Source: Bacillota bacterium
GTDB lineage: Bacteria; Bacillota; Dethiobacteria; DTU022
DNA length: 64,000 bases
Direction: 5' to 3'
NCBI GenBank assembly: GCA_029782095.1
Contig: JAKOVL010000164.1
Location: forward strand, 1-64,000
Numbering within the stretch: the stretch's first letter is position 1; every line of letters begins with the position of its first letter. A model generated the notes under the pieces. It saw only the letters and a program-made list of their open reading frames with translations. It searched no databases and was not told the origin of the DNA. Shown in pieces: positions 3,331-17,480 of this stretch. The position numbers were made by a program, and so were the translations under genes.

Positions 3331-6300
3331 TTAGCCCTCAATTTCTATTTTCTTCATGGGGCGGCGGTGAAGAAGGTCATACAACACCGGGACCACAATC
3401 AGGGTCAACAGCGTGGCGTAGGTTAAACCGCCGATGCTCACCACCGCCAGCGGCTGGGTAATCTCCGCCCCCCGGCCCAGGCCCAGGGCCATGGTGCTCA
3501 TGGCCAGGATGGTGGTCAGGGCGGTCATAAGGATGGGGCGGATGCGGGCGGCGGCGGTCTCCAATAAAGCCTCCCGCTTATCCATCCCTTCCAGGCGCAG
3601 CTGGTTGACCAGGTCTACGAAGACAATGCCGTTGTTAACCACGACGCCGGCCAGAAGCAGGAAGCCCAGCAGGGCTGTTACGGAGAGCTCCATGCCCGCG
3701 ATCCAGAGCAGCAATAAACCTCCGGTGAAGGCCAGGGGAAGGGTAAACATGATGATAAAGGGCGAGAGGAGGCTTTGGAATTGAGCCACCATGATCAGGT
3801 AGATAAAGATCGAGGCCAGGATGATCATCAAAATGATATCCTCCATGGCGCTGGTAATCATTTCGTTCTCGCCGGCCACCTCCAGGCTGACCCCCGGAGG
3901 AGGGGTATAGCCCGCCAGCTTTTTCTCAAAGTCCCGGCTGACCAGGCCGATATTGTAGCCGTCGGCGATGGAGGCGGTGACGGTGACGTGACGGGACTGG
4001 TTATCCCGGAAGATGGAGGCGGGAGAGATGGAGGTGGTGATCTCGGCAACATCCCCAAGGCGCACTTCTTTTTTTGTTCCCTCCCGATCGGTGACGGTGA
4101 AGGTATAGTCGGCAAGGTTATCCCGGTTGATGTTGGCCCGTTCCGCGTTGACGATGACCACCGGGTATTCTTCGGAACCGGAGAGCAAAGTGGTGGACTT
4201 GGTTTCCGGGGAGAGGGCGGCGGATATCTCCTGGAAGATCTGGGCTACGGTTAACCCGTGGCGCATGGCGGCGTCCCGGTCCACGATAATCCGGGTTTCC
4301 GTGCCGGCTTCTTCGTTGCCGGTAAGCACCTCCGTCGTCCCCTCCGTGGCCCTGAGAATTTCGGCCACTTCTTCGGCGCAGGAGGCCAAAAGGTCCAGGT
4401 CTTGCCCCTTAATGATTACTTCAATTCCACTGCCGCCCAGGGCGGTCATATCCATGTTGGTTGAGGTGACGGAGATTTCCGCCTCCAAATCGGCGGTTTT
4501 TTCGTATATTAATCTTTCCACCTCCCGGCTGGTCAGGGAACGCTTATCTTTGAGCAGGATAAAGAAGCTGGTATCGCCGGAAGAGGAGCCTGAAAGCTCC
4601 AGCAGCCCGGTGGAGCCGGTCATGGCGCCGACGCTGTCCACGGCTTCGATCTCCAGCAAGCGCTGGATCACTTCGTCGTTCATGGCGTAAATTTCTTCTT
4701 TGGTGCTTCCCTCGGGCATGGTGAGGGTGGCGCTCAACTGGGGAGAGTCCATTTCCGGGAAGAAGCTGGTCCCCATGACGGTAACGCCGTAAACACTTAA
4801 GCCGAAAAGGAGTGAAACCAATAGCAGGACGATAAATTTGTGATCCAGGGCGAAGCGCAATAATTTCAAGTACCCCTTGCGCATGGCCTCGAACCAGGAC
4901 AGTCGCTTGGCTTCGACTTTTTGGAAAAAGGTAGAGGCCATGGTGGGGACCAGGGTCAAAGCCACGGCCAAACTGGCCAGCAGGCTGTAGGCAATGGTTA
5001 GGCCCATGTCGGTGAAGAGCTGGCGCGAAATTCCCTGGGTGAAGACAATGGGCAGGAAGACACAAACGGTGGTCAAGGTAGAAGCGGTGATGGCGCCGGT
5101 CACCTGTTGGGTTCCGTATACGGCCGCCCGGTACACGGGGACGCCCTGGAGGCGCAGCCGGTATATATTTTCAATGACCACGATGCTGTTGTCCACCAGC
5201 ATGCCGACCCCCAGCGCCAAGCCGGACAAGGAGATGACATTGAGGGTGACATTGCTGAAATACATCAGCGCCATGGCGAACATAAGGCTGATGGGGATGC
5301 TGACGGCGATCAGCAGGGTGGGCCGGACATCTTTCAAGAAAACCAAGAGAACGATAATGGCCAGGAGACCGCCCAGGAGCAGGTTTTGCAAAACGTTGTC
5401 GATGGACATGTGGATATATTCCCCCTGGTCCATGAGGGGGAGAATGTGCAGCCCCTGGTGCTCGGCAGTTAACTGGTGGATCAGGCTGTTGATCTGGTCG
5501 GCCACGGTGGAGGTGGAGGCGGTGCTCTGCTTATGAAAAGTCAGGAGCACGCCGTCATTGCCGTTGACCTTGGCGTAAGTCCGCTGGTCGCTGCCGGTCA
5601 TGGTTATATCGGCCACATCGACCAGGCGGATGTCGCCCGCCTCTTCCGTAGAAAAGAGAATCGTATCGGCAAGGTTTTCCTCCGATTCATAGCGTCCCAC
5701 CACCTTAACCAGGTGGCCGCTTTCGCCCTCCTGGATATAGCCGGCGGGCATGGTGAAGTTTTGGGCCATCAGTATGCTGCTGATCATTTCTTCCGTAATT
5801 ACATTGTTCAAGTCCGCCTGCTTCCGGGCTTCTTCCCGGGCCTCCTGCAGTTCGGAGAGGCCTTTTTCCAATTCGGCCCGGCTGTTCTCCAGTTGGATGC
5901 GGGCCCTGGCCAGCTCGATGGCGAGGGAGATTTTGCCCGATTCCACCTGCCGGTAGCCGGCGGCGGCCTCGTCCAGGGCTTTCTCCAGCTCCGGCTTCAT
6001 GGCCGACAGGGTCATCAGGCGCAGGGAAATGTTCTGCAGTTCCGTATCGATGGCGGCGATGCGGGAAGGTGCCTCCAGGGCCTTCTTTTCCAACTCCGCC
6101 ATCTCTTCCTGGGAGATGCCCCGCAGCTCTTCCGGAAGGCGGGGTTCCAGCTGGGCCATCACCAGGGCGAAGATTTCCGGGCTCAGGGAGGAGACGCCCG
6201 TGGGGAAGAGCATGCGGAAGAGGGGCTCCATCTCCGCCAATTGCTGCAGTACCTTCTTTTCCTCTTCAAAGGCGGTTTTCTGTGCATTGAGCAAAGTTTC

Positions 6301-7077
6301 TTCGGACAGCAGGGCGTTCAGGTTGGCGATGGCGCCGTCCAGCTGGACCCCGGCCTCGGCCAGCTGGGTCTGCCGGTCGGCCGTCTCCTTTTCCAGCTTC
6401 CGGATGGCCTCATCCAGCTGGGCCTGTGCCTCTTTAAGCTGGGAGTGGGTCTTCTCCAGAGAGCGGTCCAGGTTTTGCATGACCTTCCCGTTTAAGCGGT
6501 CGATCTTCTCCTGGTTGAGGGATACCTGCAGCTCTTTTTCCAGGAGACCGGTGGCCGTAACGGAAGCTACCCCGTCGATGCGTTCAAAGGCGGGCAGCAG
6601 CTTATCCGAGACCAGCTTGGAAAGCTCATCGATATCGGCGCCTTCCATGTCCACCGTGGCCACCATGACGGGGATCATGTCGGGGTTGATGCGCAGCATC
6701 ATGGGCTTCCCCACGGAATCGTCCAATTGAGAAGAGACCAGGTCCAGGTTGTTGGCCAGCTCGATCATTATGCTGTCCATGTTTACCCGCTGGACAAATT
6801 CCAGGATGATCACGCTGGCATTCTCCCGGGATATGGAATTTATGTTCTTCAAGCCGCTGGTGGTCCCCAGCACCGCTTCCAGGGGGGCGGTTACCGTTCG
6901 CTCCACCTGTTCGGGGCTGGCTCCCGGGTAGCTGGTGATAACTACTACATAGGGGAGTTCAATTTCCGGCAGAAGGTCGGTGGTCATTCCCATAAAGGAG
7001 ATGACTCCCAGGACGATGATCAACACAGCGGCCACCAGGACAGTGTACGGTCTCTGAACGCTAAATCGGGCGAGCAT
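3331..7077 (-). CDS. RND-family efflux permease (AcrB/HAE1/SwrC-like) with a large coiled-coil insertion
   Basis: Duplicated RND architecture (N-terminal MLARFSVQRPYTVLVAAVLIIVLG; GVGMLVDNSIVVIENIYR; GVVVNNGIVFVDLVNQLR); 1248 aa with about 190 aa of heptad-rich Glu/Gln/Leu sequence in the first periplasmic-type loop. Confidence 0.92.
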   Translation of the reverse strand: MLARFSVQRPYTVLVAAVLIIVLGVISFMGMTTDLLPEIELPYVVVITSYPGASPEQVERTVTAPLEAVLGTTSGLKNINSISRENASVIILEFVQRVNMDSIMIELANNLDLVSSQLDDSVGKPMMLRINPDMIPVMVATVDMEGADIDELSKLVSDKLLPAFERIDGVASVTATGLLEKELQVSLNQEKIDRLNGKVMQNLDRSLEKTHSQLKEAQAQLDEAIRKLEKETADRQTQLAEAGVQLDGAIANLNALLSEETLLNAQKTAFEEEKKVLQQLAEMEPLFRMLFPTGVSSLSPEIFALVMAQLEPRLPEELRGISQEEMAELEKKALEAPSRIAAIDTELQNISLRLMTLSAMKPELEKALDEAAAGYRQVESGKISLAIELARARIQLENSRAELEKGLSELQEAREEARKQADLNNVITEEMISSILMAQNFTMPAGYIQEGESGHLVKVVGRYESEENLADTILFSTEEAGDIRLVDVADITMTGSDQRTYAKVNGNDGVLLTFHKQSTASTSTVADQINSLIHQLTAEHQGLHILPLMDQGEYIHMSIDNVLQNLLLGGLLAIIVLLVFLKDVRPTLLIAVSIPISLMFAMALMYFSNVTLNVISLSGLALGVGMLVDNSIVVIENIYRLRLQGVPVYRAAVYGTQQVTGAITASTLTTVCVFLPIVFTQGISRQLFTDMGLTIAYSLLASLAVALTLVPTMASTFFQKVEAKRLSWFEAMRKGYLKLLRFALDHKFIVLLLVSLLFGLSVYGVTVMGTSFFPEMDSPQLSATLTMPEGSTKEEIYAMNDEVIQRLLEIEAVDSVGAMTGSTGLLELSGSSSGDTSFFILLKDKRSLTSREVERLIYEKTADLEAEISVTSTNMDMTALGGSGIEVIIKGQDLDLLASCAEEVAEILRATEGTTEVLTGNEEAGTETRIIVDRDAAMRHGLTVAQIFQEISAALSPETKSTTLLSGSEEYPVVIVNAERANINRDNLADYTFTVTDREGTKKEVRLGDVAEITTSISPASIFRDNQSRHVTVTASIADGYNIGLVSRDFEKKLAGYTPPPGVSLEVAGENEMITSAMEDIILMIILASIFIYLIMVAQFQSLLSPFIIMFTLPLAFTGGLLLLWIAGMELSVTALLGFLLLAGVVVNNGIVFVDLVNQLRLEGMDKREALLETAAARIRPILMTALTTILAMSTMALGLGRGAEITQPLAVVSIGGLTYATLLTLIVVPVLYDLLHRRPMKKIEIEG

Positions 7078-7334
7078 TGCTTCCCCCTTGCTTCAACCAT
7101 TGGCTGTTTTTTGGAAGAAAAACTTTTTGATGGAATGTCAAAGTTCCTCTATAAATTGTAGTATGAAGCATTTTAGAGTTAATTACAAGGGGCAATTTGG
7201 CTGGAGGGGAGGCTAGATATTTTTTTGGCGAAAGCTTGCGCAAATGCTAAACAAGGCGGCGGCCTGGTTGTTCATACCAGCGGCGGTTGGCGGCGACCCG
7301 GAAGCGGTGAAGAGTTGAACCAGGCCGGAAGACA

Positions 7335-7365
7335 ATAAAGGCGGGCCGGCGGGCCCGCCTTTTGC
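7335..7365. terminator. Terminator-like GC-rich hairpin
   Basis: AAAGGCGGGCCGGCGGGCCCGCCTTTT, downstream of the minus-strand gene ending at 7401. Confidence 0.65.
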
Positions 7366-7400
7366 CCGGAGGCCGCCGCTGCGCAAGGGCCGGCTGCGCT

Positions 7401-8141
7401 TCAGCTTTTAAGCAGGGAGTTGGCAATGATGATGCGGCGGTAGTACTGAAATACCTTGTCCCCGGGGGGGCATTGGGGCATGGTATTTACTTCGAAGATC
7501 CATGGCTTTAAATCTTGATCCAGGCCCACGTCCAGCCCCAGCTCCCGCAAGCCCGGGTACTTTCTGCTAAGCACGGCGGCGGTGGCTTCCCCCAGGCGTT
7601 TCAAGCGCCCCAATATTATCTGGGACTGCAGCCTGTTCAATCCCGCTTTTTCCAGGGCCTCAGCGGTTCTTAAAACGGTCCCCCCCTGGGCATAATTGGT
7701 CACCACTTTGCCCGGGGCCCTCATCCTGGCCGAACTAGTGGTGGCTATCCACTTGCTGTACGGTTTCTGGACATTGATCCGGAGGTCGAAGGGGACGTTG
7801 TCAATCTGCAGCAGCCGGATGGCCTGCTGGATGAGATAGCGCTGGGAGGTGATCAGCCGGTTGACCATGTGGACCGCATCGGGCAGGGGGACGCCCTTTT
7901 GAACCCGGGTATCATAGTGAATGAGGCAGCGCCGTTTTTTGTCCATGGCGACGTAGATAATCTTGTTTCCCTTCCGGCCCACATCCGGCTTAATGAAGAC
8001 TCCGGAGTGTTTGGCCAGCATCTTTGCCAGGTTGTCGGGGGAATAGGCCACCGTTTCCGGAATATGCCGGCCAATTTCCGGGTCTCTTTGTAAAACCCTG
8101 GTTTTATCCAGCTTGCTGCGCACTACTTGGTAAGGAGTCAT
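7401..8141 (-). CDS. YheC/YheD family (ATP-grasp) protein
   Basis: PDVGRKGNKIIYVAMDKK..., DLRINVQKPYSKW..., LGLDVGLDQDLKPWIFEVNTMPQCPPG: ATP-grasp motifs typical of YheC/D. Confidence 0.85.
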   Translation of the reverse strand: MTPYQVVRSKLDKTRVLQRDPEIGRHIPETVAYSPDNLAKMLAKHSGVFIKPDVGRKGNKIIYVAMDKKRRCLIHYDTRVQKGVPLPDAVHMVNRLITSQRYLIQQAIRLLQIDNVPFDLRINVQKPYSKWIATTSSARMRAPGKVVTNYAQGGTVLRTAEALEKAGLNRLQSQIILGRLKRLGEATAAVLSRKYPGLRELGLDVGLDQDLKPWIFEVNTMPQCPPGDKVFQYYRRIIIANSLLKS

Positions 8142-8153
8142 AAAATCAATCCC

Positions 8154-9293
8154 TCAACGGTTATGGTATTTATTAATATTTTCCCGGTGCCGGTAGAGGT
8201 ACTTGGCGTAAAGCATCGGGTTTAAAAAAGCTCTTTGAATTACCTGCTGGTCTGCCCCGTTGATCAAGGAGACCTTCATCGATTTGGCGTTGCATTCAAA
8301 GAACCAGATCCTGCCCTTGTTGTCCAGGCCGAAATCGATGGCGATCTCGCCAAAGGGGCCGTAGGCCTCTTCCATGCACTGGTAGACCTGGAACAGGAAG
8401 TCCTCGATTTTCTTCTCCAGGGAGGCTACGGCCTCCCGGGAATAGCCCAAATACTTGTAAAAAAAGTCTTTGGCCATGAGGCTGGTTCCGTGGGTGGCCA
8501 CGGGGGAGTCCTTCGCCCCCAGGCGGGCCAGGACGGCCACAAGTTCCAGCTTGCCTTGACCGTTTCGCTGCATTTCGCCGCGGAAATCGACGATGCGGTC
8601 GTCTATTTGAATCAAGTCCACGGCCTGCTGGACGATAACCGGTCTATCGCCGACGACCGAGGCGATTAGGGCCGGCAGCCTGTATAGACCTTTAATTTTC
8701 CCGGAGTGCAGTTGATTGACGAAGTAGCTGTAGGCGTATTCATCATTGGGCAGCCTGGTTACCCGGATCACCTGCTGGCCTCGCCTGCCGGTGGCGGCCT
8801 TGAGATAGATGCTTTTATTAAAGCGGAAAAGATGACTGATATCGGCAAGGCTATCCAGGCGCCGGGTATAGGGAAGGTGATGGGCCAGCTGCGGGTGGCG
8901 GGAGAGTATTTGATATAGTTCCATTTTATCAAAGTAGTGGCGGGAATTAATCTTTAACACTCCCCGCCGGTGAAATTGCCGGCGGATGAAGTCGGCCCGC
9001 TTCTCCTGGGCCGGGCTGCGGCCCACAAAGCGGTCGTAAAGAATGTCAGGCCTGCTTATGGCAATAGGCTCCCAGCGCTGCCGCGGCCGGTTATAGATAA
9101 TTCCTTCCACCCGGTCCGGGTTGAAGGAGACGCCGTCGATGCTAAAGAGGAAGAGGGTAACCCCGGCTCTTTCCGCCGCCCGGAAAAAAAGATCCAGGCG
9201 AAAAAAGATGCCGTATCTCTGTTTTTTTAAAGAGTTTACCACCCAGCTGTCTAAAAACAAGCCGACGATGGGTCTGTCAAAGGCTTTTCGCAT
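8154..9293 (-). CDS. YheC/YheD family (ATP-grasp) protein
   Basis: LKAATGRRGQQVIRV, VDFRGEMQRNGQGKLELVA, FGEIAIDFGLDNKGRIWFFECNAKSMK. Confidence 0.88.
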   Translation of the reverse strand: MRKAFDRPIVGLFLDSWVVNSLKKQRYGIFFRLDLFFRAAERAGVTLFLFSIDGVSFNPDRVEGIIYNRPRQRWEPIAISRPDILYDRFVGRSPAQEKRADFIRRQFHRRGVLKINSRHYFDKMELYQILSRHPQLAHHLPYTRRLDSLADISHLFRFNKSIYLKAATGRRGQQVIRVTRLPNDEYAYSYFVNQLHSGKIKGLYRLPALIASVVGDRPVIVQQAVDLIQIDDRIVDFRGEMQRNGQGKLELVAVLARLGAKDSPVATHGTSLMAKDFFYKYLGYSREAVASLEKKIEDFLFQVYQCMEEAYGPFGEIAIDFGLDNKGRIWFFECNAKSMKVSLINGADQQVIQRAFLNPMLYAKYLYRHRENINKYHNR

Positions 9294-9532
9294 AGGACAC
9301 GTCCTCTGGCAAAAATCTCACACCTCCAATATATGCTTCAACAAGAGAACTAGTAACTTAACCGTATGGCACCGGAGACATAAATAATGATGTAACAGGA
9401 AGAAGCAAGTTTCTTTTGGCCGGAACTCTTGTCGCGGAAATCAAGAAAGAACCGAAGAACATTATGCATCTTCCGGAATATATTAAATTGTAGACCTTGA
9501 TAAGGTGGAGATTTGGAAAGGGGCGAGAAAAG

Positions 9533-10000
9533 GTGTCCAAGGAAAAATCGTCCGCCCGGGACTGGAAAAAAATATATCCAAAGGTTGCCTTCGTAAAGGC
9601 CGGAAAAGAAGACGAAGGCTATATGCTCAGGCTGGCGGCCAAGGAAATTGGCATTGTTCCCCAGAGGCTGCGCAGCCATACCAACCTGCTCATTCACCTG
9701 GGAGGCCAAAGGATTGGCTTTATATCATATCGGCGCCTGCCGGACAATATTATTTATATCTATCTTTTTGTCTTGGAGGAGCAGTGTCAAAACCGAGGCT
9801 ATGCTCAGCCGGTGATCCTTAAGTTGATCATGATGGAGAGAGAAAAGCAGCCCCTGGAGGGAATTAATTTTCGCATCCACAAGACCAACCAGCAAGCGCT
9901 GCATGTGGCCTTGGAGAAATATGGCTACAAGGTCATAAAAGAGATGCCCAAGCACCTGGTCTTGTTTAAGCCGTATCCGCCGGATTATAAGCCGGTATAA
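9533..10000 (+). CDS. GNAT-like acetyltransferase-fold protein
   Basis: GTG start inside the listed 9497-10000 ORF; pattern GGQRIGFISYRRLPDNIIYIYLFVLEEQCQNRGYAQPVILKLIMMERE...NFRIHKTNQQALHVALEKYGYKVIKEM resembles GNAT motifs A/B. Confidence 0.6.
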   Translation: MSKEKSSARDWKKIYPKVAFVKAGKEDEGYMLRLAAKEIGIVPQRLRSHTNLLIHLGGQRIGFISYRRLPDNIIYIYLFVLEEQCQNRGYAQPVILKLIMMEREKQPLEGINFRIHKTNQQALHVALEKYGYKVIKEMPKHLVLFKPYPPDYKPV

Positions 10001-10007
10001 GGGCGGG

Positions 10008-11117
10008 GTGAAGATGGCACGACCTGTTGTCGGGGTTTTGGTGCGCAAAAATTTTTTTCGAAACCCAAAGGGGCTGCTCTTTGCCCAGAAACTGCTCCAG
10101 GCCAACCGGGAAGATCCTTGCCTGATCTATTTTTTTCCCGTGGAGAACATTGACTGGATCAATAAAAAAATAGAGGGATATGTTCCCGGTCCCCGGGGAG
10201 GGTGGCGGAGAGGCTGCTACCCCTTCCCGGATGTCTTGTACGATCGGGGTGCCGGCTTTGGCCAAAATGAAATGGCGGCTGTGGAGCAAATCCGCCGCCG
10301 CTTGAAAAACATGCCGGGGATCCAGCTAATCAATGCGTGCCGGCTGGAGAAATGGCCGGTTTATGAGCGTCTCTCCCGGCATAAAGAGATGGGCCGGCAC
10401 CTTCCGAAAACGATAGTGTTTAACGGCTTGCCCAGCGTCAAGCTCATGCTGGACCGCTACGGGCTTGTTTTTATAAAGTCTTCGGAAGGGAGCGGGGGCC
10501 TTGGTGTGATCTGCCTGGAGAAGAAGAAGCAGGGGTACTGTTGCTCGTTGTATAAAAGAGGCGCCCACAAGCGGCTCCTGGTGAAGAACTTGCTGGAGCT
10601 CAAGAAGATTCTGGACCCGGCTGTGGGCCGGGAAAGGAAGGCCATCGTCCAGCAGGGAATCCGCCTGGTCAAGTATAAGGGGCGCCGCCTGGATTTGCGC
10701 GTCTTGATGGTTAAGGATGCAAAGGGAGAATGGAAGTCCGTTTACAACCAGGCGCGGCTGGCCCCGGAGAAGGCCATGATCACCAACCTGGCCCTGGGGG
10801 GAGAAGTCATGAACTACGCCGATATCTTGCCGGAGTTGAGAGAAAGCTACGGCGATCTGCCCTCCGATTCCGAAATCCGGAACATAAGCAGCCGCATTGT
10901 CCACTATATTGAAAAAGAATTCGGTCCCTTCGGCGAGATAGGCCTGGACCTGGCCGTGGATGAAAGCGGCAGGGTCTGGCTGCTGGAAGCCAATTCAAAG
11001 CCCAGCAAGCTGCCGGAAGCAGGTCTTGAGGATACCGTGGGGATCTCTCCCCAGTTCAAGATGACCCTGGATTATACTCGCTTTCTCTTTTCCGGGGGGA
11101 AAAAAGGCCCCCCTTAA
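10008..11117 (+). CDS. YheC/YheD family (ATP-grasp) protein
   Basis: FIKSSEGSGGLGVICLEKK, DLRVLMVKDAKGEWKSV, FGEIGLDLAVDESGRVWLLEANSKPSK. Confidence 0.88.
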   Translation: MKMARPVVGVLVRKNFFRNPKGLLFAQKLLQANREDPCLIYFFPVENIDWINKKIEGYVPGPRGGWRRGCYPFPDVLYDRGAGFGQNEMAAVEQIRRRLKNMPGIQLINACRLEKWPVYERLSRHKEMGRHLPKTIVFNGLPSVKLMLDRYGLVFIKSSEGSGGLGVICLEKKKQGYCCSLYKRGAHKRLLVKNLLELKKILDPAVGRERKAIVQQGIRLVKYKGRRLDLRVLMVKDAKGEWKSVYNQARLAPEKAMITNLALGGEVMNYADILPELRESYGDLPSDSEIRNISSRIVHYIEKEFGPFGEIGLDLAVDESGRVWLLEANSKPSKLPEAGLEDTVGISPQFKMTLDYTRFLFSGGKKGPP

Positions 11118-11159
11118 GGGGCCATACATATAGGCAAAAAACAACACAAAGGACAAAGG

Positions 11160-12308
11160 GTGCCGATGGTGGCTGCCGTGGACTTTTTAGCAGATCGCTT
11201 TCTCTTAATCGGGGTATTGCTGAACGATGGTTCCCATTGGAGAAGGATAAACCTGGAGCGGATCGTCAACGAACTTTTTGGCTCTCCCAGGGAGGCTGTG
11301 CTGAAGCAGCTTTGTTTCTTTTCTCCGCCGGATATCGATTACCGGCATCTTACCGTCCGGGCAACCGTTTATGACCGCCGGCGGGGGGCGTGGACCCCAA
11401 AAATAGTCCCCTTCCCGAAAATCGTTTACCTGAGGGAGGGGCTGGCCGGCCTGGGGCCGGAGGAAGTTGAAAAATTTGCCGGGGCGGTTCTGGCTACCAG
11501 GTCGCTGCTGGCCAATAACCGGATTGAATTTAACAAGTGGGAGATTTACCGGATCCTGGCCCATAACCCGGAGCTCAAATTTTACTTGCCGGAAACCCGG
11601 CTCTCCGGTAGGGGCTTCAGCCTGCTGGACCCGATGCTTCGAAAATACGGGGAGCTTTACCTTAAGGGCTGCCGGGGGAGGAGAGGAGAGCAGGTGATGC
11701 AGGTTATACTGCACTCCCCGGGCCACTACGAGTGCCGCTACCACCACGGCCGGACCGTTTCCCGGCAGGCCCGTTCCTATGGCGAAGTGCTGGCTCTGAT
11801 CAACGGCTTTTTCCGCCGGCAGGAATTCATTCTGCAGCAGCCCATCGACCTGCTGACTTTCAACGGCAGGAAGATAGACATGCGCGCGGAGATGCAGCGC
11901 AACGGCCGGGGAGAGTTGAAGCTGGTTGCCACGCCGGTCCGGGTGGGGAGGGGCCAGTCTCCCATCACCACCCATGCCTCCAGCTATCCCTTTGAAAAAT
12001 ATTTCAAGGAAGTGCTGGCCTATAACAAAGCCCGCTTGCAGGAGCTAAAGTCCCGGATGGAGAGATTGCTATACAAGACCTATCGAACGGTGGAGGGTCA
12101 CTACGGCTCCTTAGGGGAGATCGGCATCGATATCGGGCTGGATAAGTCCGGCAAGCTCTGGATTATTGAATGCAACCCCTTATCGGCCAAGGTTTCTTTA
12201 ATGAAGGCCTACGGGGAGAAAACCATGCGCACGGCCCTGCTGAATCCTCTGGATTATGCGCTCTATAAAGCAGGGAAGGGTCGGAGCAGCCTGCTGGCGG
12301 AGAAGTAA
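11160..12308 (+). CDS. YheC/YheD family (ATP-grasp) protein
   Basis: LKGCRGRRGEQVMQV, DMRAEMQRNGRGELKLVA, LGEIGIDIGLDKSGKLWIIECNPLSAKVS; closely resembles the 8154-9293 product. Confidence 0.88.
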   Translation: MPMVAAVDFLADRFLLIGVLLNDGSHWRRINLERIVNELFGSPREAVLKQLCFFSPPDIDYRHLTVRATVYDRRRGAWTPKIVPFPKIVYLREGLAGLGPEEVEKFAGAVLATRSLLANNRIEFNKWEIYRILAHNPELKFYLPETRLSGRGFSLLDPMLRKYGELYLKGCRGRRGEQVMQVILHSPGHYECRYHHGRTVSRQARSYGEVLALINGFFRRQEFILQQPIDLLTFNGRKIDMRAEMQRNGRGELKLVATPVRVGRGQSPITTHASSYPFEKYFKEVLAYNKARLQELKSRMERLLYKTYRTVEGHYGSLGEIGIDIGLDKSGKLWIIECNPLSAKVSLMKAYGEKTMRTALLNPLDYALYKAGKGRSSLLAEK

Positions 12309-12448
12309 GGCCCGGCAGTCTACTGTCAAGTATACGGCCCGAGGCGCTTAAAGAAGAGGCACGAAAAGCGTTCCCGGGGTGTAACTTTTAATCAGCCGGA
12401 AGCATATAAGTAGCAATATATAACCTGGTAATTAAAGGAGGTGCAAAG

Positions 12449-12610
12449 GTGGCCGACGGTAGAAAAAAGGCGCAGGCGTTGAGGGCCAAGTACCGCCAGT
12501 ATGCCAAGAAGCTGGCGCAGGCCAGAAAGGCGGGCTTTCGGGCAACCCCCGCCCAAAAAGCAAAGCTCATGAAGCTTAAGAGCCGCCTAAAGAAAAAAAG
12601 AGCCGGCTAA
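12449..12610 (+). CDS. Small, highly basic protein (53 aa), not in the supplied ORF track
   Basis: AAAGGAGGTG SD then GTG: (M)ADGRKKAQALRAKYRQYAKKLAQARKAGFRATPAQKAKLMKLKSRLKKKRAG*. Confidence 0.65.
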   Translation: MADGRKKAQALRAKYRQYAKKLAQARKAGFRATPAQKAKLMKLKSRLKKKRAG

Positions 12611-12646
12611 TTAATTAAAAATTCCTATTAACGACCAGTGCCCCGC

Positions 12647-12680
12647 AACCCTCTCCCCGCCCCGCCCCGGGGAGAGGGTT
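12647..12680. repeat. Strong intergenic hairpin
   Basis: AACCCTCTCCCC (12647-12658) / GGGGAGAGGGTT (12669-12680), perfect 12-bp stem; no adjacent T-run. Confidence 0.7.
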
Positions 12681-13124
12681 GGCAAGAAAACCTTAAGTCT
12701 AGCGCCGTGGCCGCCGGGAAACTGGTTTTACTTTTCATATTGGAAAGCGCATCCAGGGAATTGCCGCTATGGGCGGGAGACGGGATTTCCGGTCCTACAG
12801 GCTGGAGAGAGAAACTGGGAACGCGGCGCCACGGGCTGCCGGATAGCCAGTTGCTCGACCTGGGGGGAGGTGGGGAAAAGGCCTTTCTCGCATAAGATAA
12901 TCTTTGGGGGTCGCAACATCTAACCGGCACGATCTGGCCGGCAAAAGGGCCCCTATGATAACGGTTGAAATGGATGAAAGGGAATGCCCGGTGCATGGCA
13001 GTAAAAGTATTTTAGCATGTATTTTTATAAACACTAGTTTAGCAAAGTGATGAGAAAAGAGGAGCCGGATCTGTGCCCGGGAACTTGTTATTATGTTAAC
13101 TAATTTGGAGGGGTGATGGAAACG

Positions 13125-13157
13125 GAAGCCCGTGCCGTGGTCCGGGCTTCTTTTTTT
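13125..13157 (+). terminator. Terminator/attenuator upstream of the M23 peptidase gene
   Basis: GAAGCCCG (13125-13132) / CGGGCTTC (13143-13150) followed by seven T. Confidence 0.7.
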
Positions 13158-13303
13158 ATGCATATTTTTATATACCTTTGTTGGGCAAAGATGCCAATGC
13201 TGTATATTATTACAACATTATGTAAAGCAGGAACGGGAAAGGGGGCATCGAAATTATTAATAAAACTTAACAAATAATACTTTACCAAAGGAGAAATCAG
13301 CTC

Positions 13304-14599
13304 GTGAACCCAGAACTGTACAAGCCAAGACTTGCCGCCGTAGTTGTTTTAGTGCTGCTGATCTTTGGCCTGGCCTTCGTTCAGGCTGACCCGGCTCAGG
13401 CTTATGAAACGGCCACCGGATTCGAATACCCCTTAAAAGGAGGCGGCTGGTTTTTGGGCCAGGACTTCGGCGTGTGGAACACCACCCGGAACGAGTATCA
13501 CTTGGCCGAAGACCTGCTGCCGTACGACATGAGGTCAGAACTTCCCGTTTACGCCCCCGCCAACGGCGTGGTAAGGAGCAGCGGCTACCAGAGCGGTTAC
13601 GGGTACGTGCTGGTCATCGAGCACCGGCTTCCCAATAATACATATGTCTGCTCCGTCCTGGGCCACCTGAAATCCAACCTGGTCCCCCGGGGAACGGAGG
13701 TAAAGAAAGGGCAATGGGTGGGGCAAATTGCCTTAAGCCCCCGGGAAAACGGCGGCTACAGCTTTAGCCACCTGCATTTTGGGATCCGCAGCGGGGCGTA
13801 CAGCACAGTGCGGGATCCCGATGGGGGCTGGAGATATCGCGGCTATGCTCCCAGCACTTCCATCAGGGCCCTTTGGTATAAACCCTCGGAATTTGTAAGA
13901 GAGCACGCCGCCATTCCCGGGGACAGTTCGCAGGCCTCCCTGGCGGCAAGCCCTGCTTCCCTAACTTTTGGACAGGTTGAGGTAAACAGCTATTCGGATC
14001 TGAGAAGCTATCGCGTTACCGGTTCCCATTTGACCGGCGCTGTTACCATAGAAGCTCCGGCAGGATTTTGGATCTCCCTTAGTCCCAACAGCGGCTACCA
14101 GCGCACCCTGACCTTGCCGCCCGAAAATGGTGCCGTTGAGCGCACCATCTATGTCCGCTTTGTGCCTAGCAGTGCGCGGCAGTACAGCGGCAGTATCCTC
14201 CACCGGACGGCGGGAGCGGCGGAACGGAGGGTGCAGGTAAGCGGAGAGGGGATCGCCGGCCACAGGGTGCCCGCCCCCCTGCGCCCCTATGGCCCCAGCA
14301 GCGGCGTTGCCGGCGGCAGCTATACCTATTACACCATTGCTGACCCCTGTTCCGCCGGCCACCCGGTCCAGTACCGCTTTGACTGGGGAGACGGGACCTA
14401 CTCGGCCTGGAGCAGTTCATACAGCGCCGCCAAGAAGTGGAGTACTCCCGGAACCTATAACATCAGGGCGCAGGCGCGCTGTGCCGTTACCCATTCCATT
14501 GTCTCGCCGTGGTCTTCAGTGCGCACGGTAACCATTGAACCCAACAGCCAGCAGCGGCTCCTTTACCTGTATTACCGGTATTTGCAGTCAAGAAGATAG
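13304..14599 (+). CDS. Secreted M23-family (LytM-type) peptidase with PKD-like C-terminal domain
   Basis: GTG start with GGAG upstream; signal peptide; HLAEDLLP...YAPANGVV...GYVLVIEHR...GHLKSN...HLHFGIR; PKD-like YRFDWGDGTYSAWSSSYSAAKKW. Confidence 0.85.
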   Translation: MNPELYKPRLAAVVVLVLLIFGLAFVQADPAQAYETATGFEYPLKGGGWFLGQDFGVWNTTRNEYHLAEDLLPYDMRSELPVYAPANGVVRSSGYQSGYGYVLVIEHRLPNNTYVCSVLGHLKSNLVPRGTEVKKGQWVGQIALSPRENGGYSFSHLHFGIRSGAYSTVRDPDGGWRYRGYAPSTSIRALWYKPSEFVREHAAIPGDSSQASLAASPASLTFGQVEVNSYSDLRSYRVTGSHLTGAVTIEAPAGFWISLSPNSGYQRTLTLPPENGAVERTIYVRFVPSSARQYSGSILHRTAGAAERRVQVSGEGIAGHRVPAPLRPYGPSSGVAGGSYTYYTIADPCSAGHPVQYRFDWGDGTYSAWSSSYSAAKKWSTPGTYNIRAQARCAVTHSIVSPWSSVRTVTIEPNSQQRLLYLYYRYLQSRR

Positions 14600-14640
14600 C
14601 TGGAGGTCCCGGGGCTGGGAAGGCCGGGATATGGATATGC

Positions 14641-14677
14641 GGCGGTCCCCTGCTTGGAGAGGGGACCGCCTTTATTT
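14641..14677 (+). terminator. Rho-independent terminator
   Basis: GGCGGTCCCC...GGGGACCGCC TTTATTT. Confidence 0.85.
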
Positions 14678-14900
14678 GTGCCCCGGTTCGGGTGCCAGGC
14701 CGCCGGTGAAAAGGGCTCGCCCGCGGAAAGGGAAGCCGCCGCTTAAAGAGAAGAGAGCGCTGCAAAGGGCGGGCCGACGGTATTGCTGGAACTATGGGAA
14801 GGCGCCGCCAAGGAAGAGATGAGGAGACGAAAAGGGACGCCGATGAGGGAGCGATTGTTGAAACGGAACTGTTGAACCGCCCAGGGACTCTTGGAGACAG

Positions 14901-16655
14901 TTAACGGCGAAAGCGCTTTAGCTCCTCTTCCCTTAATTTCCGCTTAAATATTTTTTGCGTGGGCGTAAGAGGCAGCTGGTCTCGAAATTCTACGGCGTAG
15001 GGAACGGCGTAGGGGGGGCATTTTTCCTTGCAGTAATTGATAATGTCGGCCTGGGTTACCCGCCCCTTAAAGGGCTCCTTTAGCTTGATGAACACTTTAA
15101 TTCGTTCGCTGCCGGGGCGCAAAGGATCCGGCAGGCCCACGGCGGCAGCCTGGGATACGGCGGGGTGCTTGAACAGTATATCGTCGATGAGCCCGGTGTA
15201 TACTTTAAAACCGGAGATGTTGGCCATCTCTTTAATCCGGTCCACGATGTAGAAGTAGCCGTCTCTGTCCATGCGGGCGATATCGCCGGTGGGCAGCCAC
15301 CCCTTTCTCAGGCCGCTGCCCGGGTGGGGCCAGTAGCCGAGCATTACCTGGGGGCCTTTTATATACATGTGTCCTTCTTCGCCGGGGGAACAGATCCTGC
15401 CTGTATCTTCGTTGATCAGGACCACGTCGGTATCCGGCACGGGAACGCCGATACTGTGCTTGGCCCGCCCCAGCATCTTGGCAGGCCGGGAGAAGCTGCT
15501 GAGATTTATGTGGGTTACCGGACTGCATTCCGTCAGCCCGTAGCCTTCGGAAACGGGCATTTTTTTGTGCCGGGCAAAGGAGCGATGCAGGGCCGCCGGA
15601 AGGTGGGCGGCTCCCGTCATTATGTGCATCGGTACCCTGGGGATATCTTTTTCCGCCAGCTGCATCAACTGAGTGGGCACCATGCTCACCAGGAAGGGGC
15701 GGCTTTCGGAGATCAGCTCCAGGATGGAATCTGTATCCCGGGGATCCTGGACCAGGATGATTTTCAGGCCCCAGTTGATGGCGGAGAGCATAACCCAATC
15801 GCCGTACATGTGAAAGAGGGGAATGGGAATCATTACCGAACCCCGCCCGCAAATCCGGGACTCCGAGGCGGCCATCATCCAGGGGAAGCCTTGCAGGACA
15901 TTGGCCAGGCGGTTGAAGTGGGAGAGCATCACGCCCTTGGGCTGTCCCGTTGCTCCCCCGGTAAAGGCCAGGTAGGCCAGGTCTTCCCGGGGTTTGACAT
16001 GGACTTGGGGGGGGTGGGGCTTATACCGGGCGACCAGGTCCCTGAAGCGGTGGGTTCCCTTGACGGCAAACAGCAGCGGCGGAAAGCCGGGCGCAAAATC
16101 CCGCTCCGAGGTGACAATAACGACTTGGACCTCCAGGGCCGGTATCGATTTTCTAAAAAGAGCGTAAAATTCGGCCGGGCAGATCACCCCTTTTGCTCCT
16201 GACTCCCGGATTTGGGCAGCCAGCTCTTGAGGGGGATGCAGAAAGCTGCAGGGAACGTGGACCGCTCCCGCCTTCAAAATGGCGAAGGTGCTTATAATGT
16301 ACTGGGGGCAGTTGGGCAAAATGGTGGCCACTCGATCTCCCTTTTTTATGCCCAAGTCGGCCAGGGCGGCGGCCAAGCTGTTGGAGAGCAGCAGCAGCTT
16401 TCGGTAATTGATGCTATATCCGCGATACTCGATGGCTGTGGACAGCGGGTATTTGGAGGCGGAGCGGTCCAGGATTTTAAACAAGGGCAGTTGAGGGTAG
16501 GGAGCCAGGCTGGTTTTCAAGCGGTGGGCTCCCAGCTGGTAGCTGTCGTGCCATGGTCTTTTTTTCAACGCTATGCCTCCCGCTCTTAAGACTAGGGCCT
16601 TATGGACAGGCCCTCCCCGGTAAATAACGGGGTGGATACCGACTTTCCATAACAT
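14901..16655 (-). CDS. AMP-binding acyl-CoA synthetase/ligase
   Basis: LAYLAFTGGATGQPKGVMLSHFN (P-loop-like A3), EGYGLTECSPVTH (A5), GWLPTGDIARMDRDGYFYIVDRIKEM (A7/A8), PTQKIFKRKLR (A10). Start chosen at ATG 16655; the listed ORF extends to 16862. Confidence 0.9.
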   Translation of the reverse strand: MLWKVGIHPVIYRGGPVHKALVLRAGGIALKKRPWHDSYQLGAHRLKTSLAPYPQLPLFKILDRSASKYPLSTAIEYRGYSINYRKLLLLSNSLAAALADLGIKKGDRVATILPNCPQYIISTFAILKAGAVHVPCSFLHPPQELAAQIRESGAKGVICPAEFYALFRKSIPALEVQVVIVTSERDFAPGFPPLLFAVKGTHRFRDLVARYKPHPPQVHVKPREDLAYLAFTGGATGQPKGVMLSHFNRLANVLQGFPWMMAASESRICGRGSVMIPIPLFHMYGDWVMLSAINWGLKIILVQDPRDTDSILELISESRPFLVSMVPTQLMQLAEKDIPRVPMHIMTGAAHLPAALHRSFARHKKMPVSEGYGLTECSPVTHINLSSFSRPAKMLGRAKHSIGVPVPDTDVVLINEDTGRICSPGEEGHMYIKGPQVMLGYWPHPGSGLRKGWLPTGDIARMDRDGYFYIVDRIKEMANISGFKVYTGLIDDILFKHPAVSQAAAVGLPDPLRPGSERIKVFIKLKEPFKGRVTQADIINYCKEKCPPYAVPYAVEFRDQLPLTPTQKIFKRKLREEELKRFRR

Positions 16656-16766
16656 AGTACACAAAATCCGGAAATAGGTGCCGGATCGGGGGAATAAAAG
16701 AAGGGGTATTTGACAAGAAGTTGGTCGTGTCGTAAACTTAAGGGCGGCGGAGGGGAGGTTTTTGGA

Positions 16767-17480
16767 TTGCCGACAGCCTATGTCTTGGATTTTGACGGCA
16801 CGATAACCACGGCGGATCTTACCACGGAGTTGGCCCGCCAATTTGGCGGCCGGGAATTCCATCAGATCGAAGACCTTTACCGCCGCCGGAAGCTGGGCAT
16901 GCGGGAGTGGCTGAAACGCATGTCCGCTTTCTTGCCGGCGGACTGGGAGCTTCTGAAATCAATGGCCCTGGAATGGGCCTCTCTCAGGCCCGGCTTTAAA
17001 AAATTTGCCCGGCACTGCCGGGAGCAAGGCTCTCCCCTCTATATTGTCAGCGACGGCTTCGGCTTCTACATTGAACCGGTCCTGGAGAAGCTTGGCTGCC
17101 GCGAAGAGATCACCGCCATCTTTTGCAATAAGGCGGTGGTCAGCGGGGAGAACAAGATTGAAATCCTGAGTCCTTACGCCCACCCCATATGCACCAACTG
17201 CGGTAATTGCAAGGCGGCCCTGGTCCAGCGTTTTAGACGGGAAGGCTGGAAGGTGGCCTATGCGGGGGACGGGAACAACGATCGCTTCGGTGCCGCCTGG
17301 TCCCACTATATCTATGCCCGGGATGAACTGGCGGAACACTGCCGGAATCACGGTCTTCCCCACCTGATCTGGAACGACTTTGAAGATATTTTGGCCGCTG
17401 AGCCGCGGCGAGAGTCCTTTGCCCACAACCCCAAGGATTCCCCTTTCTGCCGTCCCCAGGATAGAGGGTACTTGTTCTAG
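16767..17480 (+). CDS. HAD-superfamily phosphatase (MtnX/SerB-like)
   Basis: TTG start; VLDFDGTITTADLT motif I, YIVSDGFGFYIEPVL motif II, VAYAGDGNNDRFGA motif IV. Confidence 0.82.
   Translation: MPTAYVLDFDGTITTADLTTELARQFGGREFHQIEDLYRRRKLGMREWLKRMSAFLPADWELLKSMALEWASLRPGFKKFARHCREQGSPLYIVSDGFGFYIEPVLEKLGCREEITAIFCNKAVVSGENKIEILSPYAHPICTNCGNCKAALVQRFRREGWKVAYAGDGNNDRFGAAWSHYIYARDELAEHCRNHGLPHLIWNDFEDILAAEPRRESFAHNPKDSPFCRPQDRGYLF

Follow-up and report, generated by a model that had tools for sequence, protein, structure and literature searches.

A divergent cluster of four YheC/YheD ATP-grasp genes with a GNAT gene and a gene for a tiny polycationic protein: a possible late-sporulation spore-envelope module in Dethiobacteria

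The gene cluster

The stretch of 64,000 nucleotides analysed here (the window; contig JAKOVL010000164.1 of assembly GCA_029782095.1, class Dethiobacteria) contains between positions 7401 and 12610 six genes, of which four encode ATP-grasp proteins of the YheC/YheD (YheC/D) family (A1 to A4), one a GNAT-family acetyltransferase and one a polycationic protein of 53 amino acids, the tiny protein. An earlier note, made from the DNA letters, had described two ATP-grasp genes in each of two divergent arms, with the GNAT gene leading the plus arm and the small basic reading frame at its end; we found all of these reading frames present and PF14398 in all four ATP-grasp proteins.

The minus arm is led by A2 (8154-9293, minus strand; 379 amino acids; PF14398 6e-66), followed after 12 nucleotides by A1 (7401-8141, minus strand; PF14398 6e-51), a short protein of 246 amino acids that lacks the N-terminal domain. 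The plus arm consists of the GNAT gene (9533-10000, plus strand; Pfam Acetyltransf_1 2e-5, above the cut-off), A3 (10008-11117, plus strand; 369 amino acids; PF14398 7e-68) and A4 (11160-12308, plus strand; 382 amino acids; PF14398 2e-65), separated by 7 and 42 nucleotides, respectively; the tiny gene (12449-12610, plus strand) follows 140 nucleotides behind A4. For the GNAT gene the GTG at 9533 is the most likely start, over the upstream TTG at 9497 from which the frame is open. Known RNA families were not found in 7000-15000 of the window. Related clusters are present on contig C49 of the same assembly (G000) and in the genomes G001 (same genus), G002 and G017.

Four ATP-grasp proteins and an acetyltransferase

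All four proteins match PF14398 at 173-229 bits (cut-off 26.8). The earlier note had called them paralogues; they are not a local expansion: in a tree of 55 YheC/D proteins built by maximum likelihood A1 to A4 fall into four separate supported groups (100/99 for A1, A2 and A3, 99/94 for A4), each with members from other genera. A recent tandem duplication is ruled out by this tree; the four are old, distinct orthologous groups. A1 also has its own group, with members from C49, G001, G002, G017, G072 and G079; A2 has orthologues in four other loci (49-55% identity), and the A4 group is shared with C49, G001 and G017.

In A3 numbering, K115, K157, Q215, D229, R231, D314, D318, W324 and E327 are identical in 55 of the 55 aligned family members and N329 in 53 of them. 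Among these are the Lys, Asp, Glu and Asn residues with which ATP-grasp enzymes bind ATP and Mg2+, and the nucleotide- and Mg2+-binding residues K115, K157, D314, E327 and N329 are present in all four window proteins. Because the catalytic residues are intact, the objection raised beforehand, that they might be degenerate in all four proteins, falls away.

An AlphaFold2 model of A3, built from only four input sequences (predicted local distance difference test score, pLDDT, 77.7; predicted template modelling score, pTM, 0.78), was compared with known structures by Foldseek. The best match in the PDB was an ATP-grasp ligase associated with a ribosomally synthesized and post-translationally modified peptide (RiPP) (7mgv, 1.5e-12), and further matches were RimK (4iwx, 8e-12), ArgX with LysW (3vpb, 1e-11), DdlA and the glutathione synthetase GshB (1gsa, template modelling score 0.62 over the query). 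A profile built from A1 to A4 of the window matched tubulin-tyrosine ligase (TTL) at 3e-5 across the metal-binding segment; the Pfam TTL cut-off was passed by A1 only (2.9e-6), over 40 residues. The matched enzymes (RimK, ArgX, Ddl, RiPP ligases, TTL and glutathione synthetase) all make amide bonds with amino acids or peptides, and the fold of YheC/D is predicted from the model to be of the amino-acid/peptide ligase class, in line with the idea of a carboxylate-amine or peptide ligase in the earlier note. RimK, the LysW-dependent LysX and ArgX, and TTL, enzymes that attach amino acids to proteins or to carrier proteins, have the fold and the pattern of catalytic residues in common with A1 to A4. 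The identity over the fold match, however, is only 13-18%, the NCBIfam RimK model gave 16 bits with A3 (cut-off 143, not reached) and no RimK or LysW signature is present in the window cluster. Judged from sequence and model, A1 to A4 share the fold of the RimK/LysX/TTL ligases rather than membership in their families.

The GNAT protein has the acetyl-CoA motif Q/R-x-x-G-x-G/A in the conserved form QNRGYA, in which Q86 and G89 are invariant across seven homologues. Homologues (33-47% identity) occur in six other YheC/D loci, and in 7 of the 7 loci in which it was found the gene lies at most one gene away from a YheC/D gene. In G073 and G079 a different GNAT is paired with a divergent YheC/D protein. 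Operons of R2K-family ATP-grasp enzymes with GNAT genes are similar in that genes for a peptide ligase and an acyltransferase adjoin (PMC4431377); they differ in the family of the ATP-grasp enzyme and in that the window cluster has sporulation-type promoters.

The tiny polycationic protein

The tiny protein contains 13 Lys, 7 Arg, one Asp and no Glu, and its gene is preceded by a strong ribosome-binding site of its own (AAAGGAGGTG, 12434-12443, plus strand). At the same place in their clusters C49 and G001 encode homologues of 45 and 44 amino acids (L014:2736-2873, minus strand, and L046:14193-14327, plus strand) that contain neither Asp nor Glu. Net charges are +19, +19 and +18 (window, C49, G001) with at most one acidic residue each, and the core (S/T)PAQ(K/R)A(K/R)L is shared. 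The counts of Lys and Arg are 13/7, 7/12 and 10/8, three lysines being invariant; this free interchange argues that charge is conserved rather than sites of lysine modification. Between C49 and G001 the ratio of non-synonymous to synonymous substitution rates (dN/dS) is about 0.24, calculated from few sites (six synonymous and seven non-synonymous codon differences). Since the gene has a ribosome-binding site, a conserved promoter-like element (see below), homologues at the same place and this dN/dS, it goes beyond a chance reading frame, and from these features we take it to be genuine and co-regulated. From the single sequence the protein is predicted to form a helical hairpin (helices 4-27 and 34-52, pLDDT 82.7); neither Pfam nor NCBIfam gave a match above cut-off.

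Searching 98 genomes of the class and 398 of the phylum detected the tiny gene only in the window, C49 and G001, a count that is a lower bound because short sequences of biased composition are easily missed. The orthologous clusters of G002 and G017 lack it. A match in G008 (4.6e-4) was dismissed, being 20 residues long and containing a stop codon. The co-occurrence of the small reading frame with YheC/D clusters, which the earlier note had put up for testing, was thus not borne out, and a universal partnership with YheC/D is ruled out. Occurring in three clusters and missing from two orthologous ones, the tiny protein is therefore an accessory and not an obligate substrate.

Graspetide precursors are small and have a repeated core with conserved acidic donors (Asp or Glu) and with Ser, Thr or Lys as acceptors. 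The window cluster resembles these microviridin-type RiPP systems in having ATP-grasp ligases beside the gene of a small protein, and also in the best PDB match of A3. The tiny protein, in contrast, is without leader or core repeats, has almost no Asp or Glu and is missing from orthologous clusters; as a graspetide precursor it is ruled out on composition.

Directly 3' of the tiny gene (12646-12681) lies a perfect 14-nucleotide inverted repeat (CAACCCTCTCCCCG / CGGGGAGAGGGTTG) with a loop of 8 nucleotides, which could be a terminator-like element or one resembling a repetitive extragenic palindromic (REP) sequence.

Promoters and sporulation

In the region between the two arms (9294-9532), for which sigma-E or sigma-K promoters had been suggested, there are two promoter-like elements, both sigma-K-like. 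The one upstream of A2, GTTAC-N17-CATATATTG (9327-9355, minus strand; TAC at 9355-9353, -10 at 9335-9327), differs from the consensus at the final base; its position and spacing are kept in C49 and G001 (GTTAC-N17-CATATAATA) and in G002 (GCTAC-N17-CATATAGTA). The plus arm is preceded by GAAC-N16-AATATATTA (9458-9485, plus strand; AAC at 9458-9460, -10 at 9477-9485), an element that also stands before the GNAT gene or A3 in C49, G001, G002 and G017. Upstream of the tiny gene lies GTGTAAC-N17-CATATAAGT (12383-12411, plus strand), which aligns with C49 and G001 in invariant blocks of 8 and 7 nucleotides; in C49 and G001 this element is an exact AC-N17-CATATANTA. No conserved match to sigma-G or sigma-A promoters was found at either arm.

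The elements upstream of A2, the plus arm and the tiny gene are of the common type (A/T)AC-N16/17-(C/A)ATATANTA. In 394 kb of fetched loci, both strands included, this pattern has 13 sites compared to 0.2 expected from a first-order random model, and for 10 of the 13 the next gene downstream is A2, GNAT/A3 or the tiny one (window, C49, G001, G002 and G017). The A2 and tiny elements of the window were recognised by alignment and position rather than by the strict pattern. The sigma-K type, a -35 AC and a -10 CATANNNTA spaced by about 16-17 bp, is matched exactly for A2 in C49, G001 and G002 and for the tiny gene in C49 and G001. Directly 3' of the -10 element of A2 the sequence GGAGGTG is followed by a TTG (9314-9279, minus strand), which could be the start of an 11-codon leader peptide overlapping the start of A2.

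Across the entire assembly there are five copies of the strict form AC-N17-CATATANTA: before the tiny gene and before A2 of C49, before the dpaAB operon (identity confirmed), before a glycosyltransferase gene, and once inside or at the start of an open reading frame. Upstream of spoIVA, which in Bacillus subtilis is a sigma-E gene, the ATA type was found in seven genomes. In Clostridioides difficile the promoters of sigma-E and sigma-K have a common -10 and differ in the -35, which is ATA for sigma-E and AC for sigma-K, and in this species, as in B. subtilis, transcription of dpaAB depends on sigma-K (PMC3789822). The AC-type -35, its strict form before dpaAB and the ATA type at spoIVA therefore favour sigma-K over sigma-E, and the cluster would probably depend on sigma-K. 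The glycosyltransferase gene with the strict pattern (L105; G000:C74:14326) is followed by a second glycosyltransferase-like frame, and the pair is a candidate late spore-surface sugar operon.

Of 80 relatives, 19 have PF14398, and 15 of these also have SpoIVA; of the 61 without PF14398, 24 have it (p = 0.0035, kinship uncorrected); for the genomes that are at least 90% complete the numbers are 11 of 11 and 16 of 34 (p = 0.0014, likewise uncorrected).

Synteny

Two genes behind the tiny gene are kept as neighbours in C49, G001, G002 and G017: one for an M23 peptidase-like secreted protein (13304-14599, plus strand; Pfam M23 3e-15) and one for an AMP-forming acyl-CoA ligase-like protein (14901-16862, minus strand; Pfam AMP-binding 6e-81). 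With the slash marking the divergent arms, the order is A1 A2 / GNAT A3 A4 tiny M23 AMP-ligase in the window, A5 A1 A2 / A3 A4 GNAT tiny M23 AMP-ligase in C49 and G001, and A2 / GNAT A3 A4-like M23 AMP-ligase, without the tiny gene, in G002, where the gene in the A4 position falls into another group of the tree. In G017 the genes are distributed over three contigs (A4-M23-AMP-ligase, A3-GNAT and A2-A1). A5, the fifth YheC/D gene of the C49 and G001 clusters (L014:7847-9097, plus strand, and L046:7940-9091, minus strand), has no counterpart in the window cluster; the frame listed for it in C49 runs into the end of A1.

Interpretation

YheC and YheD have been listed among the spore-coat proteins since the 2000s, and we know of no reaction for them. 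The yheC-yheD genes of B. subtilis, which belong to the same domain family over the full length and are likewise associated with sporulation in the mother cell, form a pair under sigma-E with SpoIIID, whereas the window cluster has two divergent arms with four distinct orthologous groups, and in addition a GNAT gene, a tiny gene and sigma-K-like promoters. Because of these promoters and because the presence of YheC/D tracks that of SpoIVA, both of which agree with the spore-coat link mentioned in the earlier note, we consider it reasonably probable that the cluster is a late-sporulation, mother-cell-expressed spore-envelope module of amide-bond ligases.

From sigma-K-like promoters two divergent transcripts (A2-A1 and GNAT-A3-A4) and a third one for the tiny gene would be made. 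A1 to A4, distinct and with complete active sites, would be amide-bond ligases. Their fold makes it most likely that they convert a carboxylate to an acyl phosphate and then link it to an amine, by which an amino acid or peptide would be built up on, or attached to, a protein or polymer of the coat; the GNAT protein would acylate an amine of the product or of an intermediate. The tiny polycation would be expressed along with them as an accessory, and its simplest role would be that of a coat protein binding an acidic component of the coat. The genes, their orthology, the intact active sites, the class of the fold, the promoter elements and the co-occurrence with SpoIVA are observed here; dependence on sigma-K, the coat location, the reaction, the acceptor and any role of the tiny protein are what we infer. 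If the tiny protein has such a role, it would be a new family of small spore proteins.

Several findings weigh against this proposal. The A2 and tiny elements of the window each deviate from the strict -10 consensus by at least one base. Assembly-wide the strict pattern is not enriched, a reversed control pattern giving 9 matches versus its 5; a genome-wide regulon with the exact pattern is unsupported, and the case for the promoters therefore rests on their conserved position. Since the promoters of C49 and G001 are homologous, the 13 sites do not count as independent. For yheC and yheD of B. subtilis the control is by sigma-E, with SpoIIID raising expression, and not by sigma-K (PMC517825). 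SpoIVA was not found in the YheC/D-bearing genomes G001, G034, G070 and G074, all of which are at most 86% complete, and the statistics of its co-occurrence ignore shared ancestry. In the literature searched we found no substrate or reaction for any YheC/D protein.

It is rather doubtful, and yet deserves attention, whether the four ligases and the GNAT protein instead work one after another on a free product, an acylated peptide or a poly-amino-acid that enters the spore envelope, with no dedicated protein acceptor. Four non-redundant ligases do adjoin an acyl transferase, their folds are near those of Ddl and glutathione synthetase, the acyl-CoA ligase-like neighbour is kept in synteny, and linked ATP-grasp ligases have been proposed to ligate successively, a linked GNAT capping the product with an acyl group (PMC4431377). 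The conserved block, however, is without genes for a transporter, for the supply of amino acids or for a racemase, and YheD of B. subtilis, which forms rings and then a shell around the forespore and strongly self-associates, behaves more like a coat-bound protein (PMC7911427). The same rings, shell and self-interaction could mean that YheC/D are mainly building blocks of the coat that have retained the ATP-grasp fold; we regard this as very unlikely, the catalytic residues being invariant in 53-55 of 55 diverse members, which would be improbable without catalysis.

That the tiny protein is the dedicated acceptor to which the ATP-grasp enzymes join amino acids or peptides, close to what the earlier note had imagined for the small basic protein, appears improbable to us. 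The tiny gene is syntenic in the window, C49 and G001 under a common promoter type, three of its lysines are invariant, and several of the best-matching folds (RimK, ArgX-LysW, RiPP ligases) act on small proteins or peptides; but Lys and Arg swap freely among the homologues, two of the three of which are without acidic residues and cannot be donors of side-chain acids as in graspetides, the gene has its own promoter-like element in the 140 bp behind A4, and none of the other YheC/D loci scanned, the orthologous clusters of G002 and G017 included, has the gene. A role as modification substrate is unsupported. Quite improbable, too, is a variant in which the product of the ligases is an acidic polymer of amino acids or peptides on the coat, for example poly-glutamate tails, with the tiny protein as its counter-ion or cross-linked partner; if true, this would be a previously undescribed chemistry of late spore-coat maturation.

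On our proposal of a late spore-envelope module, four old, non-redundant members with complete active sites, a GNAT protein and late-sporulation-type promoters replace the vague label of coat protein by a ligase pathway that can be put to the test. Should coat material prove to be what the enzymes modify, endospores would have a post-translational or polymer chemistry of a new kind.

Origin of the contig and further observations

Assembly G000 (2.97 Mb, 227 contigs, the window being on contig C218) has 6.26% contamination. The cluster proteins of C49 are 82-94% identical to those of G001, whereas those of the window are 45-75% identical to C49 and G001 (the ATP-grasp proteins about 50%). A methylthioribose-1-phosphate isomerase-like (mtnA-like) gene is doubled in the assembly, and the window copy is the outlier. 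The FtsX gene is also present twice, the window FtsX sharing 57-61% identity with that of several genomes of the class; we withdrew it as proof of a foreign contig, the class having two FtsX types, of which the window type matches G012 at 61%. Because the window copies diverge and C49 is so close to the same-genus genome, the contig has, as judged from sequence identities, probably been mis-binned and comes from a different genus, to judge by FtsX most likely one within the same class. The window and C49 therefore serve as two independent lineages for comparison.

G000 has 13 PF14398 genes, four in the window and nine others, and G001 has eight; G073, a single contig of 3.56 Mb, has 13 YheC/D genes and G079 has 10. 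Some genomes of the class carry a strongly expanded family. At 3331-7077 (minus strand) the window encodes an RND-type exporter of 1248 amino acids with a long coiled-coil-like insertion past about residue 200.

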